The notes under the pieces were generated by a model, which searched no databases, was not told where the DNA came from, and worked only from the letters and a program-made list of their open reading frames with translations. This document shows positions 3,434-18,968 of a DNA stretch of 30,593 nt, piece after piece. This stretch comes from Gammaproteobacteria bacterium. Lineage in GTDB: Bacteria; Pseudomonadota; Gammaproteobacteria; Competibacterales; Competibacteraceae. Numbering within the stretch: position 1 is the stretch's first letter; every line of letters starts with the position of its first letter. The stretch covers positions 5,942 to 36,534 of the forward strand of contig JAIFNF010000294.1 in NCBI GenBank assembly GCA_020047885.1, in the 5' to 3' direction. The position numbers and the translations under genes were made by a program.

Positions 3434-4135
3434 TCAATCCGAACTTCCCGTGCGAATCACCAGAAACAGCGCGAAATACGGTCCCGGCGTGGCCGGAATG
3501 TCCGCGAAGCGTCTGATGATCTGTTGCGTGGGTCGACTCGCCTGTTCGATGTACAGCGTGTCCTCCATCCGCCCGGTTTCCCGCAACAATTCCAGCAGGC
3601 GTGGCCGATGCCGACCCGGCTTGAGAATGGCCACGCTATCGCTGTTCAGCAACGCCTGACGCAAGGCTTCATCCCCAGCGGTCGCGGGAATAACCGTTAA
3701 CCGCTGTTCGCCGGTCATCAGGGGTATAGCAGCGGCGGCAGCGCTCGCGCTGACCGAGTTGATGCCGGGAATGACGACACAGGGAAACCGCTCGCCGAGG
3801 CGGTGCAGCAGGTAGCTGAAGCTGCCATAGAACAACGGGTCGCCTTCGCAGAGAATCGCTACATCCCGCCCGGTGTCCAGTTCTTCAGCAATCCGGATCG
3901 CCGCCGCGTCATACCCCGCATTCACCGGGCCACGATCCAGCATACAGGGCATGGCAATCGGGATTTCCCGCTTTCCTTCGAGCCAGGCGGCGGCAATATC
4001 GCGGGCCTGGGCGCTGCCTTGTGGGGTCGCGGGATACGCTACCACCGGGACGCTTTGCAGAATCCGCACGGCTTTCAGCGTCAACAGTTCCGGGTCGCCA
4101 GGCCCGACGCCCACCCCGTATAAAGTCCCCGTCAT
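3434..4135 (-). CDS. cobI: precorrin-2 C20-methyltransferase
   Basis: A 233-residue SAM-dependent tetrapyrrole methylase that adds the C20 methyl group to precorrin-2 in cobalamin synthesis. The N-terminal GVGVGPGDPELLTLKA is the signature glycine-rich loop of this superfamily. ILCEGDPLFYGSFSYLL is the second conserved loop, and PGINSVSASAAAAAIPL is the third. Length and motif order match CobI/CbiL. It overlaps the upstream cobL by the four bases ATGA, so both are translated from one message. No other cob or cbi genes lie in the window, so the rest of the pathway must be elsewhere. Whether it belongs to the aerobic (CobI) or anaerobic (CbiL) branch cannot be settled from this gene alone. Confidence 0.92.
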   Translation of the reverse strand: MTGTLYGVGVGPGDPELLTLKAVRILQSVPVVAYPATPQGSAQARDIAAAWLEGKREIPIAMPCMLDRGPVNAGYDAAAIRIAEELDTGRDVAILCEGDPLFYGSFSYLLHRLGERFPCVVIPGINSVSASAAAAAIPLMTGEQRLTVIPATAGDEALRQALLNSDSVAILKPGRHRPRLLELLRETGRMEDTLYIEQASRPTQQIIRRFADIPATPGPYFALFLVIRTGSSD

Positions 4136-5370: not shown

Positions 5371-5372
5371 TA

Positions 5373-5450
5373 TCAGATTCTCCGTGAGAGACCCCGGCCT
5401 TGCTTCGGCTGCGGCCGGGGAGGGATAGCGGGCCGAACGAAGTTCGGCGT
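5373..5450 (-). repeat. two-hairpin dispersed repeat, copy A (leader of cobL)
   Basis: On the minus strand this holds hairpin CCGAAC-TTC-GTTCGG (5433-5447), a conserved linker GCTATCCCTCCCC, and an 8-bp hairpin CCCCGGCC/GGCCGGGG (5392-5420). The conserved tail GGGGTCTCTC then runs to the cobL ribosome site. The same arrangement occurs in the same orientation at 12090-12182, directly before argE. The two-hairpin layout with an invariant linker is BIME- or mini-mobile-element-like. It could also influence translation of cobL. Confidence 0.6.
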
Positions 5451-5469
5451 CTTTTGGGTGAATTGGTTG

Positions 5470-5543
5470 TCGGGTAAGGAAGTGGCATTGCTGCCACTCC
5501 CTCCCCTAAGAACCGTACTTGAAAGTTTTCCTTCATACGGCTC
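5470..5543 (-). ncRNA. group II intron domains V and VI (3' end of a decayed intron)
   Basis: On the minus strand the 34 bases from 5543 to 5510 fold as a group II intron domain V. The lower stem is GAGCCGTA paired with TACGGTTC, with a two-base bulge and an upper stem GAAGG/CTTTC. It is followed at once by a domain-VI-like hairpin (GGAGTGGCA... TGCCACTTCC) and a 3' terminus ending TTACCCGAC near 5470. Position and orientation agree with the maturase pseudogene just upstream. The catalytic AGC triad of domain V appears as AGC near its 5' end. No 5' intron domains (I-IV) are visible, so the ribozyme cannot splice by itself. Confidence 0.8.
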
Positions 5544-6110
5544 AAACCTCATCGAAGCCCCCTTTCACGGGAGCCGGTTTCGCAACTTCTAACCTCTGAC
5601 TATGTATCTGCCTATGGCAATTAGGATGCAACAATACCAGCTTGGAATTATTGTCTTTTCCGCCTTCGGATTTTGAGAGGATATGGTGGACGTGCCAACC
5701 CGTCTCCTCCGTTATCTTCTCCCGGTAGTTAGGGCATTCCTTGTCTTGTTGCCACCAAAGTCTTAGCCATTGAATCTTTCCTGTCAGTTTGTCCTTCATT
5801 TTCCGGCCTAATCGGCTTTCAAAGTAGGTTTCCTGTGCAGGGTCAAACGGATGGGCTTCGCCTCTGATTTTGACATGCCACCCAATCTTCGTGTTGCTGG
5901 CTTTCACCAGTTTCACGGTTTGCGGTTTTCCTTCCTTGTCCTTGGTGTTTGCTATAAATACCTAGTTTCGATGTCCCACTGTCTTAAAGTATTTCTCTTT
6001 AATCCAGCGACCTCCCTGCCTTGGGTGTCGGCGGGTGGCTCATTGCCATAGTGCCTGCCAAACTTCGTGGTCTACTTTTGCAAAGGTGTCCTTGGCGACC
6101 GTACCCTCAG
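5542..6110 (-). pseudogene. group II intron reverse transcriptase/maturase, C-terminal remnant with HNH domain
   Basis: Only the X/thumb and HNH endonuclease end of an intron-encoded protein remains. Reading the minus strand from about 6105 gives AKDTFAKVDHEVWQALWQ, a stop (6040-6042), RRHPRQGGRWIKEKYF, a second stop (5962-5964), then an open stretch ending at 5542. Both stops fall where the family has Trp codons, as expected for TGG to TGA/TAG decay. The HNH part includes GWHVHHILSKSEGGKDNNS and LLHPNCHRQIHSQ. The whole reverse transcriptase core is missing. An apparent GTG start at 5914-5916 is only an internal codon. Beyond about 6110 the sequence becomes AT-rich with no further similarity, marking the truncation point. 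Confidence 0.85.
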
Positions 6111-6173
6111 TTTGAAAGTTCTCTTCGAAAATGTATACTAACAGTATATATCAAAATTTACCAACGGGAAAAT

Positions 6174-10404: not shown

Positions 10405-11556
10405 TTACGACACCGGGAGGGTGGGAGGTTCCGAACGGGAGAGGGAAGAACGGTAGAGAATGAGTACGGCTTTTTGCGCGGCCTTGCCGTAGCGCGCCAT
10501 GCGCTGGAATTCACGATGCAAAATGGGCATGTTGACCGAGTCGGTGAGGGTTTCGCCTTTCCCGGCGTCAACCAGTGGATCGTGGACGTAGATGTAATGC
10601 TCATCAAAGCCGGTGACGACCACCCAGTGCGGGAAGCGTTCACCGTAGATGCGGTAGGAACTGATCAGCACCAGCGGAATGCCGCCCGCCTCAAACTTTT
10701 GCCGCAACTCGTCCACGCTCAGACTGCCACGCCGGAAGACGATGGGTAATTGGCCGAGTTCCTCAATCCAGTCTTCCTGCACCAGGCGCATCACTTCCTT
10801 TTTTTCGGGACTGCGCACCGAGTCAACCAGAAACGTTCCGTCTTCATTGACATGGATTTCCAGATCAAAGCCGCGCCGGTAAGCGGATAACGCCAGTCCG
10901 TAGGGACCACAGCCGCCGTGGCCGGAGGTCATAAAGATGGTGGTGGCTTCGCGCCAGAGCCGCAATTCCAGCTTGCGGTTCAATTCCAGCGCCGGGTCCA
11001 GCGCTTTCATGGCCATCATCAGCGTCGCTGGCCCACAGGTAAAATCCAGCGTTTGCGGGTAGTACGGGACTTTAACCCGATCCAGATCGAGTTGCGGCAC
11101 CAGGCGTTTTTCAAAACGCAACGCGGTCATCTGGTCTTCGTAATAACCGAGGACTTCCTTGAACTGCCGGTAGCCGTGGCGGTGAAACAGGTTCAGCGAC
11201 CGGGGATTGTCCTGCCGCACTTCCAGACGCATGGACACACAATCGCGTTCCAATGCCGCCCTTTCCGCGGCTTCCAGCAACCGGTCGCCGATGCGACAAC
11301 GGGCAAAGTCGGGATGCACCGCGATGGAGTACAGCCGGGCCATGGAGGTGCCGCTGGAGAAGAGCAACAGCACATAACCGCGAATCTGCCCACCCTCTTC
11401 TTCAAGCAGGGTGATGGCGTGGCCACGGGTCAACAGGTGGCGAAAGCTGCGGCGGGAGAGGCGGTCGGTATTGAAACAGTGCAGTTCAATGGCCAGCAGA
11501 GCGGGCAGGTCATCGAGAAGGGCTTGGCGCAGCATGGCGATTGACGGCAATTCCAC
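10405..11556 (-). CDS. GNAT acetyltransferase fused to C39-like cysteine peptidase (DUF3335-like)
   Basis: A 383-residue fusion. Residues 1 to about 150 are a RimI-like GNAT domain (SIAVHPDFARCRIGDRLLEAA as the acetyl-CoA loop, then NLFHRHGYRQFKEVLGYY). Residues about 160-365 resemble a peptidase C39-like fold: Cys174 in TLDFTCGPATLMM, His310 in RFPHWVVVTGF and Asp326 in VHDPL would form the catalytic triad. No ABC-transporter domain or membrane segment is attached, unlike bacteriocin exporters. With the next gene (an ATP-grasp ligase) this makes a three-activity module: acetylation, cleavage and ligation. The start is a GTG at 11556; an ATG at 11535 is a fair alternative, as neither has a clear ribosome site. 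Confidence 0.8.
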   Translation of the reverse strand: MELPSIAMLRQALLDDLPALLAIELHCFNTDRLSRRSFRHLLTRGHAITLLEEEGGQIRGYVLLLFSSGTSMARLYSIAVHPDFARCRIGDRLLEAAERAALERDCVSMRLEVRQDNPRSLNLFHRHGYRQFKEVLGYYEDQMTALRFEKRLVPQLDLDRVKVPYYPQTLDFTCGPATLMMAMKALDPALELNRKLELRLWREATTIFMTSGHGGCGPYGLALSAYRRGFDLEIHVNEDGTFLVDSVRSPEKKEVMRLVQEDWIEELGQLPIVFRRGSLSVDELRQKFEAGGIPLVLISSYRIYGERFPHWVVVTGFDEHYIYVHDPLVDAGKGETLTDSVNMPILHREFQRMARYGKAAQKAVLILYRSSLSRSEPPTLPVS

Positions 11557-11689
11557 AGGCAGGGAAACAGCAGCGATGAAACCAGCGGGGATAGGCGAAA
11601 CGGCTTGGGAACGGGGGCAAAGACAAGCACGGGGTACCGATCAATGAATCTTGCTATTATCGCCCGCATCAACCGCTATTGCCAGTGAA

Positions 11690-12060
11690 AATCATCGTCA
11701 ACTACCCCGCCCTAAAGGGCGAGGCTTGTGAAAGCAAGTCTTGAAGTTGACCAGACCCGTCGCGGAGCGAGAGGCCGCGTGAGAAGCGACGAGACCTTAC
11801 TGTGGAATCCGGCGCGAGCCGGTGTGATAGGCACTTCGGAATGCTTCCTCAGTTCCGAACACTGCGGTCGGCAGTTAAACAGGCATACGGGGTACGAAGC
11901 CAGTGCTGCCGCCATGGATGGACTCGAAAGAGTACGAAAACCCACGGATAAGACGGTCGAGGGGAGCGCCCGGCATGAGCGGCTAGTCGGGCTGTGACCA
12001 GGCCCTTACGGGCAGAGTCTTACGACCCGGCAGGTGGAAAGCCTGCACCTATTCAACTTT
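11690..12060 (+). ncRNA. large structured RNA element, likely solo HEARO/IscB omega RNA
   Basis: No convincing reading frame covers this 370-base stretch, but it is full of strong hairpins. GTCAACT (11697-11703) pairs with AGTTGAC (11745-11751) and encloses CGCCC-TAAA-GGGCG (11708-11721) and GCTT-GTGA-AAGC (11724-11735, a GNRA loop). Next come CCGGC-GCGA-GCCGG (11809-11822, GNRA loop), TTCGGAA/TTCCGAA (11835-11859), GCCC-TTAC-GGGC (12002-12013) and GCAGG/CCTGC (12030-12046). The opening hairpin layout and the GATGGCTAAC..CAGGAGAG tail remind me of HEARO RNAs that precede iscB genes, where the bases just 5' of the RNA act as guide. No IscB gene follows; argE does. Family membership rests on recall. 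An IS605-type end or an unnamed RNA is the alternative. Confidence 0.55.
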
Positions 12061-12089
12061 GATGGCTAACAAAACAGGAGAGCGAGAAC

Positions 12090-12182
12090 AGGGGAACGCT
12101 TCGCGTTCCGCGCTATCCCTCCCCGCCCTAACTCGTGCTGAGCGCAGCCGAAGCAAGGACGGGGTCTCTCGCGCAACATCTG
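12090..12182 (+). repeat. two-hairpin dispersed repeat, copy B (leader of argE)
   Basis: Hairpin GGAACGC-TTC-GCGTTCC (12093-12109) is followed by the linker CGCTATCCCTCCCC. A second hairpin closes with CCCCG (12121-12125) and CGGGG (12160-12164), and the tail GGGGTCTCTC leads directly to the argE ATG. It is the counterpart of 5373-5450 in the same orientation relative to its gene. The first stem has a different sequence but keeps the TTC loop, and an insert (TAACTCGTGCTGA region) enlarges the second loop. Confidence 0.6.
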
Positions 12183-13337
12183 ATGACGACCCTTTCGCCT
12201 CTGCTTTTGGAACGCCTTCGCCGACTCATCGCCACCCCTTCGGTCAGCAGCGTATCGCCGCAATTTGACCAGAGTAATCGGCCGGTCATCGATGTACTGG
12301 CCAACTGGCTGGATGACGCCGGGTTCGCCGTGCGCATTGAACCCTTAGCCGGTTATCCCGGCAAGGCGAATCTGATTGCGACTTTAGGCAGCGGTTCCGG
12401 CGGGCTGGTGCTGGCCGGGCATACCGATACGGTGCCGTTCGATGCCGGGCGCTGGCGGTTTGATCCCTTCGGCGGCGTGATTGCCGATGACCGGCTGTAT
12501 GGGCTGGGTTCGGCAGACATGAAGTCTTTTCTGGCGCTGGCGGTGGAAGCCGCACGCGCCTTTAACGCCAGCGATTTGCGTCAGCCGTTGGTGATTCTGG
12601 CGACGGCAGATGAAGAAAGCAGCATGTGCGGCGCGCAGGCGCTGACGGGACCGTTGGGTCGCCATGCGGTGATTGGCGAGCCAACCGGGTTAAAGCCGGT
12701 GCGAATGCACAAGGGCATTCTGATGGAGGCCATTCGGCTGGAGGGGCGTTCCGGCCATTCCAGCAATCCGGCGCTGGGGGTGAATGCGCTGGAGGGGATG
12801 CACGACGTCATCGGCGAGTTGCTGCGCTGGCGCGTGGAATTGCAGGCGCGTTATCGCAATCCGCTGTTTGAAGTCGAGTTTCCGACGCTCAATCTGGGGC
12901 ATATTCACGGCGGCGATAATCCCAACCGGATTTGCGGGGATTGCGAATTGCATATCGATATCCGGCCGTTGCCGGGGATGACGCTGGATGGATTGCGCGA
13001 AGAGTTGCAGGGGCGGTTACAGCAATTGGTCGTTGACCGTGAGTTGCAGTTGAGCTTCCGCCCGCTGTTTCCGGGTATTGATGCGATGGAAACCCCGGAG
13101 ACGGCGGACATTGTCCGAGCGACGGAAGCGCTGACGGGGGCACCGGCGGGCGTGGTGGGATTCGGCACCGAGGGGCCGTATTTGAACGCACTGGGGATGG
13201 AGACGGTGATTCTGGGGCCGGGCAGCGTGGATTGCGCCCATCAGCCGGATGAATTTCTGCCCCTGGCGTCGATTCAGCCGACGATACAGATTTTACGCGG
13301 ACTGATTGAATGCTTTTGCGTAACGCCGTCGCCATGA
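12183..13337 (+). CDS. argE: acetylornithine deacetylase
   Basis: A 384-residue M20-family zinc hydrolase that releases ornithine from N2-acetylornithine in arginine synthesis. Metal and catalytic residues are visible: His80 and Asp82 in LAGHTDTVPFD, Asp112 in GSADMK, and Glu144-Glu145 in TADEESSMCGA. GEPTGLKPVRMHKGI and the dimerisation-domain segment GRSGHSSNPALGVNA follow. I use the ATG at 12183, because the 16 codons available upstream fall inside a two-hairpin repeat and read as low-sense sequence. No clear ribosome site precedes it, unlike cobL, which has the same repeat as leader. The stop overlaps the next gene by ATGA. Confidence 0.92.
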   Translation: MTTLSPLLLERLRRLIATPSVSSVSPQFDQSNRPVIDVLANWLDDAGFAVRIEPLAGYPGKANLIATLGSGSGGLVLAGHTDTVPFDAGRWRFDPFGGVIADDRLYGLGSADMKSFLALAVEAARAFNASDLRQPLVILATADEESSMCGAQALTGPLGRHAVIGEPTGLKPVRMHKGILMEAIRLEGRSGHSSNPALGVNALEGMHDVIGELLRWRVELQARYRNPLFEVEFPTLNLGHIHGGDNPNRICGDCELHIDIRPLPGMTLDGLREELQGRLQQLVVDRELQLSFRPLFPGIDAMETPETADIVRATEALTGAPAGVVGFGTEGPYLNALGMETVILGPGSVDCAHQPDEFLPLASIQPTIQILRGLIECFCVTPSP

Positions 13338-18859: not shown

Positions 18860-18925
18860 ATGACTTATTTGGTCTTCAAAGAAACCTTCACGAAGGTAGA
18901 CCTCGAAGTTTGGAAGGCAACAATA
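18860..18925 (+). pseudogene. tiny fragment of a second group II intron maturase
   Basis: Frame +2 reads VFKETFTKVDLEVWKA, which aligns with the AKDTFAKVDHEVWQALWQ segment of the maturase pseudogene at 5542-6110. At the DNA level bases 18878-18915 match the minus-strand copy at roughly three quarters of positions, including GTAGACC and CGAAGTTTGG. The similarity ends abruptly after the WKA codons. It is too short to be a gene and lies in the leader of the lipoprotein. The remaining sequence from 18699 to 18968 shows no gene. Confidence 0.4.
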
Positions 18926-18968
18926 TCGCTCTCCGGCCTGAAGATCGGGGACTCACACGGAAAATCTT

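Follow-up and report, generated by a model that had tools for sequence, protein, structure and literature searches.

The window analysed here, a stretch of 30,593 nucleotides from a gammaproteobacterium of the family Competibacteraceae, carries argE (acetylornithine deacetylase) at 12183-13337 on the forward strand (NF003474, 536.5 bits; cut-off 460) and, between base -1 and the ATG of that gene, a whole mobile element of 486 nt at 11697-12182 (+). The start codon of argE, which is conserved in relatives and reads ATGA (ATG at 12183), abuts the right end of the element. An open frame from GTG 12135 starts inside the element, and the true start of argE is the ATG at 12183. For the neighbouring gene at 10405-11556, 72 related loci were found in the genome collection; most of its close relatives are Competibacteraceae, and the closest locus (L001) matches at 93%.

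The 5' part of the element, 11697-11971 (+), is a HEARO/omega-RNA core. The only match to the Rfam model RF02033 (HEARO) in the window lies there, with 101.8 bits against a gathering cut-off of 83 (E 4e-20), and spans the full length of the model (1-211 of 211). A preliminary description of this DNA had proposed a HEARO-type omega-RNA and had named the lack of a HEARO match as evidence against it; running the model bore the proposal out. The extent given there, 11690-12060, is corrected to 11697-11971 for the RNA core and 11697-12182 for the element, and the label of a stand-alone RNA holds in that the element is guide-only but is too narrow, the RNA forming the 5' portion of a mobile element 486 nt long. 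The enclosing helix described earlier is present, with GTCAACT at 11697-11703 pairing with AGTTGAC at 11745-11751, as are the two stems with GNRA loops, both of which are GAAA. The folding energy of the element was not unusual compared with shuffled sequences (z -1.45; 10 of 100 shuffles folded as well or better) and was dropped as proof of structure; because it is unremarkable by itself, the claim of a structured RNA rests on the covariance-model match.

Downstream of the core, a 3' tail of the guide-only form with more stems (11972-12110, +) is common to the copies L116, L121, L139 and L141, and part of it matches the Allochromatium tepidum plasmid pAt1 (90.6% over 53 bases, blastn). The plasmid locus found with this tail (L172, about 1780-2122) is a guide-only HEARO-like element below the Rfam cut-off that precedes trfA, the gene for the replication initiator; it does not end at ATGA, and the trfA start follows about 40 bases further on. 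The tail of the window element is followed by an IS200/IS605-like right-end hairpin at 12121-12164 (+) of the design CCCCGGCC..GGCCGGGG-TCTCTCGCG, which recurs in IscB elements and 3' of a tnpA in the sister genome. The loop of this right end holds extra bases that are partly common to another right end in the window, at 5435-5371. An insertion unique to the window element was considered for these bases and fails, since the right end on the cobL side also has GCAGCCGAAGCAAG. Comparison across the family indicated that the window copy is one of two RNA types joined to one of two tails. The preliminary description had treated a transposon end beside relatives of the RNA as speaking against an omega-RNA; the hairpin is such an end, and it does the identification no harm because IscB elements share it.

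That no nuclease gene adjoins the RNA, as stated earlier, was confirmed: tblastn with one IscB and one TnpA query detected no iscB or tnpA gene in the window, apart from a 27-residue iscB tail at 5456-5376. The element is thus not a complete IscB system, and its omega-RNA identity is unaffected, given that a standalone form is known. It differs from a typical HEARO/IscB locus in this respect and in having a tail and end hairpin directly 3' of the RNA, but resembles one in the full-length model match, in a guide position directly 5' of the core and in its IscB kin in sister genomes. It likewise resembles IS200/IS605 elements and their non-autonomous derivatives in its hairpin end, its insertion without target duplication, its short fixed motif and the occurrence of Y1 TnpA in relatives, while it differs from them in lacking a transposase and in that a guide RNA makes up most of its length. 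The window element is a member of the HEARO/omega-RNA class, namely a guide-only, IS200/IS605-like derivative. The exact 34-base pattern of the element had no match in viral contigs, and phage records held no match to the element.

The bounds of the element were read from empty sites. In L001, window segments 11400-11695 and 12175-12400 adjoin directly. The argE start and leader were read in 12 of 15 relatives (L004, L005 and L007 fell outside the search pattern), and the element was absent from argE in all 12. The L001 leader shares 15 of 16 bases with 11681-11696, and the leaders of 11 more relatives are alike; leader length equals that of the window to the base in L001, L006 and L015 and is off by 1-2 bases in the others. 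The empty sites set the bounds at 11697-12182, and at both argE and sucC they agree with the flanks at every or almost every base, in line with insertion without target duplication. The same comparison identifies 11681-11696 (+) as host argE leader sequence directly 5' of the element, where the guide of an IscB system lies, in agreement with the guide position proposed earlier; the length of 16 bases is the literature-based value of that description, and the would-be guide is read from sequence. The base following the argE ATG in the 12 relatives is C in nine, T in one and A in two; the A in the window fits a demand for ATGA. An extended -10-like motif, TGNTATTATC, occurs in the argE leader of the window and of all 12 relatives. 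A promoter shortly upstream of argE is not claimed, as the one promoter that the scan gave at these bases is on the opposite strand.

The position of the element, immediately 5' of argE and on its coding strand, had also suggested a cis-regulatory role, in which a structured leader would have been co-opted to control argE, possibly through binding of IscB to the message. A precedent of a kind is given in PMC9581776, where the terminal hairpin of an IsrB omega-RNA includes the nuclease gene's Shine-Dalgarno sequence and is suggested by the authors to have a possible regulatory role. However, copies of the family precede many unrelated genes (named by eye) rather than keeping a conserved association with one, and the absence of the element from argE in all 12 relatives gives no sign of a conserved regulatory role. 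We regard such a role as very improbable.

IscB is considered the probable ancestor of Cas9, and ATGA has been reported as one of its motifs. HEAROs are said to have been described by Weinberg in 2009 with ATGA or GTGA beside them, solo copies being noted. In L001, past argE, lies a full IscB element with a HEARO at 4710-4480, an iscB gene at 4430-3033 (-; guided_IscB, 449.6 bits, cut-off 175) and a right-end hairpin of the window type. RF02033 was searched in 39 genomes of the family to which G001 belongs, G001 being the genome of L001 and the closest relative of the window. Matches were obtained in 12 of the 39 genomes and above the cut-off in eight, with the following numbers of matches (above cut-off in parentheses): G001, 15 (13); G034, 16 (10); and G023, 8 (5). 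Of 54 matches, 40 were fetched, including all 35 above the cut-off, which together with the window gave 41 copies. The family right end, scored with at most one mismatch in CTCTCGCG, was visible in 24 of them, counting L134, which the pattern missed and which was added by hand. Ten of the other 17 copies are cut by contig ends (L113, L114, L115, L117, L118, L119, L120, L143, L145 and L151), six begin differently (L123-L126, L135 and L136), and L132 is the single unclear case. The four G034 copies L123-L126 belong to another HEARO subfamily that starts with GTTGATT; they have a 30-base left flank in common and, judging by this sequence, probably sit inside a larger repeated element.

Eight of the 24 copies with a right end measure 1652-1694 nt and have an iscB frame; the other 16, at 360-532 nt, are without a whole iscB. 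A subterminal hairpin and ATGA are found at all 24 readable right ends, save that the short copy L137, which keeps a partial iscB, is missing the 5' arm of the hairpin. This partly deleted gene would suit the view that the window element is a fossil, that is, what deletion has left of an IscB element, no longer mobile and making no useful RNA. The same view is served by the iscB-free surroundings of the window element and by two other right ends in the window that are clearly remnants, one of which is accompanied by an iscB tail and the end of a group II intron. Against it, the window copy retains a full-length match to the RNA model, and in G001 the short copies score 91-126 bits for HEARO, compared with 94 and 105 for the two with a full iscB. 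When the short copies other than L137 (15 in all) were compared, 20 of 49 predicted pairs had both partners changed, with pairing kept, in at least one sequence; a single division into two RNA types accounts for much of this count, and alignment and structure derive from the same data. In addition, G034 has nine guide-only copies, two complete (L116 and L121) and seven cut by contig ends; the seven share 97-99.7% identity with L116 over 283-390 bases and have different left flanks, which suggests that it was the guide-only form itself that spread, and did so recently. The conserved stems and this spread favour an active family, as far as sequence can tell, and we consider a fossil unlikely.

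Proteins that could serve such copies are encoded in the related genomes. An iscB above the cut-off was found once in G034 and twice in G023, and G001 has two full genes and one partial gene at a contig start. Y1 TnpA (PF01797) was present in all six relatives searched, and in G001 a right end of the family design, and then ATGA, comes after one tnpA copy. At L174 (G001, contig C38), the guide-only copy L150 has a tnpA next to its left end. This tnpA has a right end of its own, followed by ATGAGG, and could encode the transposase by which the family moves.

The reading we hold to be probable, with moderate confidence, is that the element is a guide-only IS200/IS605-like element that depends on IscB and TnpA in trans and lives in the leader of a host gene. 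The argE promoter would transcribe the leader together with the omega-RNA, and the leader bases would become a guide of about 16 bases, with ATGA as the adjacent motif. IscB made elsewhere in the genome would bind the omega-RNA and cut argE alleles that lack the element, in which the guide match is followed by ATGA; such cutting may keep the element in place after excision or when empty DNA enters the cell. A Y1 transposase (TnpA) would move the element in trans. The host gene should still be translatable, because the start codon is intact and most copies supply a well-spaced GGAG or GGA: at 6-8 bases before the ATG, the end of the element itself reads GGAG in 9 of 24 copies, GGA in 8 and neither in 7. 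The window copy is among these seven, which counts against the translation step of this explanation.

Two steps of this mechanism are supported by analogy with known systems. Standalone omega-RNAs, guide RNA loci separate from the nuclease gene, can work with IscB, and ATGA targets are cleaved by an IsrB (PMC9581776, for the former citing Altae-Tran 2021). Unlike those RNAs, the present copies are whole mobile elements with defined ends, in several genomes and mostly at start codons, and their function in trans would be an extension of that precedent. TnpB has been presented as both a retention device and a drive for IS200/IS605 elements, the guide recording the insertion site and the nuclease attacking element-free DNA (PMC11870625); the mechanism proposed here would share this logic but employ another nuclease, which would act in trans. 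HEARO nucleases beside TnpA are few, according to PMC9755519, and this scarcity fits movement in trans.

The address at which the family sits is the start codon. ATGA lies directly 3' of all 24 family right ends, and at 21 of the 24 copies (exceptions L122, L150 and L152) it is start-like, meaning that its ATG begins an open frame of 100 codons or more, and that the same frame stays open for fewer than 75 codons in the left flank. As a control, ATGA sites were scored in 27 Competibacteraceae-like loci, and 134 of the 1395 were start-like. The binomial probability of 21 in 24 against all ATGA sites, assuming independent insertions, is 7e-19; the sample comes mainly from one family of draft genomes, and its copies are not fully independent. 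Downstream products, named by eye, include malate dehydrogenase, BioD, SucC, LeuB, CheB, CobI, MlaC and others. At empty sites, the native ribosome-binding sequence lies immediately 5' of the start: in G002, mdh has GGAG seven bases before its ATG, and the left flank of the filled site L146 agrees at every base with the last 20 bases before the sucC ATG.

Placement could be a matter of survival, any ATGA being entered and insertions within genes being purged, so that start codons are favoured among the copies that persist. Shine-Dalgarno-like pairing (energy -5 or lower) occurs in the left flanks of 16 of 24 copies, compared with 31% for 161 long ORFs and 46% for the 37 among them that have an ATGA start; the first value is not clearly higher than the last, and no special Shine-Dalgarno demand is therefore visible. 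A tnpA/tnpB-type element with similar ends (L180), which lies 14 bases upstream of a start codon and not at it, also suits this account. Purging of in-gene insertions alone, however, fits poorly with the intergenic control: ATGA sites with upstream bases outside long ORFs were start-like in only 26 of 163 cases, as opposed to the 21 of 24 copies (P 2e-14, if insertions are independent). Survival would still account for the bias if IscB keeps only transcribed guides. This account, which is compatible with the mechanism favoured above, we judge quite plausible, at somewhat under an even chance.

A broader proposal, which we put forward tentatively and are rather inclined to doubt, is that HEARO/IscB elements, guide-only copies included, are start-site specialists that use the host leader as guide, often bring a new ribosome-binding sequence, and maintain dispersed guides with few IscB genes. 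Such elements would enter between the ribosome-binding site and the ATG and take over the host promoter, and one or a few IscB nucleases would serve the dispersed guides in trans. Among titles and abstract openings, we recognised no literature that places HEARO/IscB elements at start codons; standalone omega-RNAs and ATGA motifs are known, and no description turned up of the start-codon address, with its frequent new ribosome-binding sequence. The proposal bears on how IscB guides are expressed and on why nuclease-free guide RNAs exist. If the elements systematically occupy the start sites of expressed genes, this would offer a simple source of guide transcription, and the copies at start codons suggest a route to it that does not ruin host genes; harmless insertion before sucC, mdh and leuB would be explained. 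The scattered arrangement of one nuclease and many guides would also become testable, and G034, with one iscB above the cut-off and nine guide-only copies, is a ready example.

The idea that the iscB stop generally overlaps the host ATG was considered and rejected: of the eight full copies, only two have an iscB frame that overlaps the ATG by one base, one has a frame that ends within ATGA, and in five the frame ends 27 bases short of the ATG. In three beta-proteobacterial plasmids, by their own annotation, the iscB stop overlaps the next start by one base. Some of the 16 short copies have a putative short frame that ends at the junction.

A wider check on plasmids covered 19 iscB loci hand-picked from 85 matching records (Pseudomonadota, Thermodesulfobacteriota and cyanobacteria). 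In nine (L153, L154, L156, L157, L158, L162, L165, L167 and L169), an annotated CDS starts at ATGA at the presumed end of the element, and a tenth (L161) is close to an ATGA start; the other nine (L155, L159, L160, L163, L164, L166, L168, L170 and L171) are not at such a start or are unclear. The start-codon pattern is weaker in these plasmid loci, among which the cyanobacterial element boundaries were set by eye, without empty sites.

Two further family right ends occur in the window. One, at 5371-5456 (-), carries the iscB tail and lies directly before a cobL-like gene (start 5370); the tail at 5456-5376 (-) is a 27-residue tblastn match to the IscB protein P0001 (E 2e-7), and the boundary reads ATAATG, not ATGA, and differs from that of relatives. 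At 5469-6130 (-), a group II intron end (RF00029, 60.8 bits) precedes the iscB tail, the right end and the cobL-like gene, and is itself preceded by a degenerate intron-protein/HNH stretch with stops; this order suggests that a group II intron inserted itself close to the 3' end of an iscB copy. Beside the cobL-like gene, window 3434-4135 is a homologue of a cobI-like gene that in G024 has an IscB element before its start (L134). The other right end, a pattern match at 18927-18968 (+), lies directly before the ATGA of a putative lipoprotein gene (start 18969). Homology of this region with the G001 gene, which has CGGAG directly upstream, starts at 18967. Just before this right end, 18870-18926 (+) encodes KVDLEVWKAT, which resembles KVDHEVWQAL in the remnant of an intron protein near 6100, and is probably another group II intron remnant.
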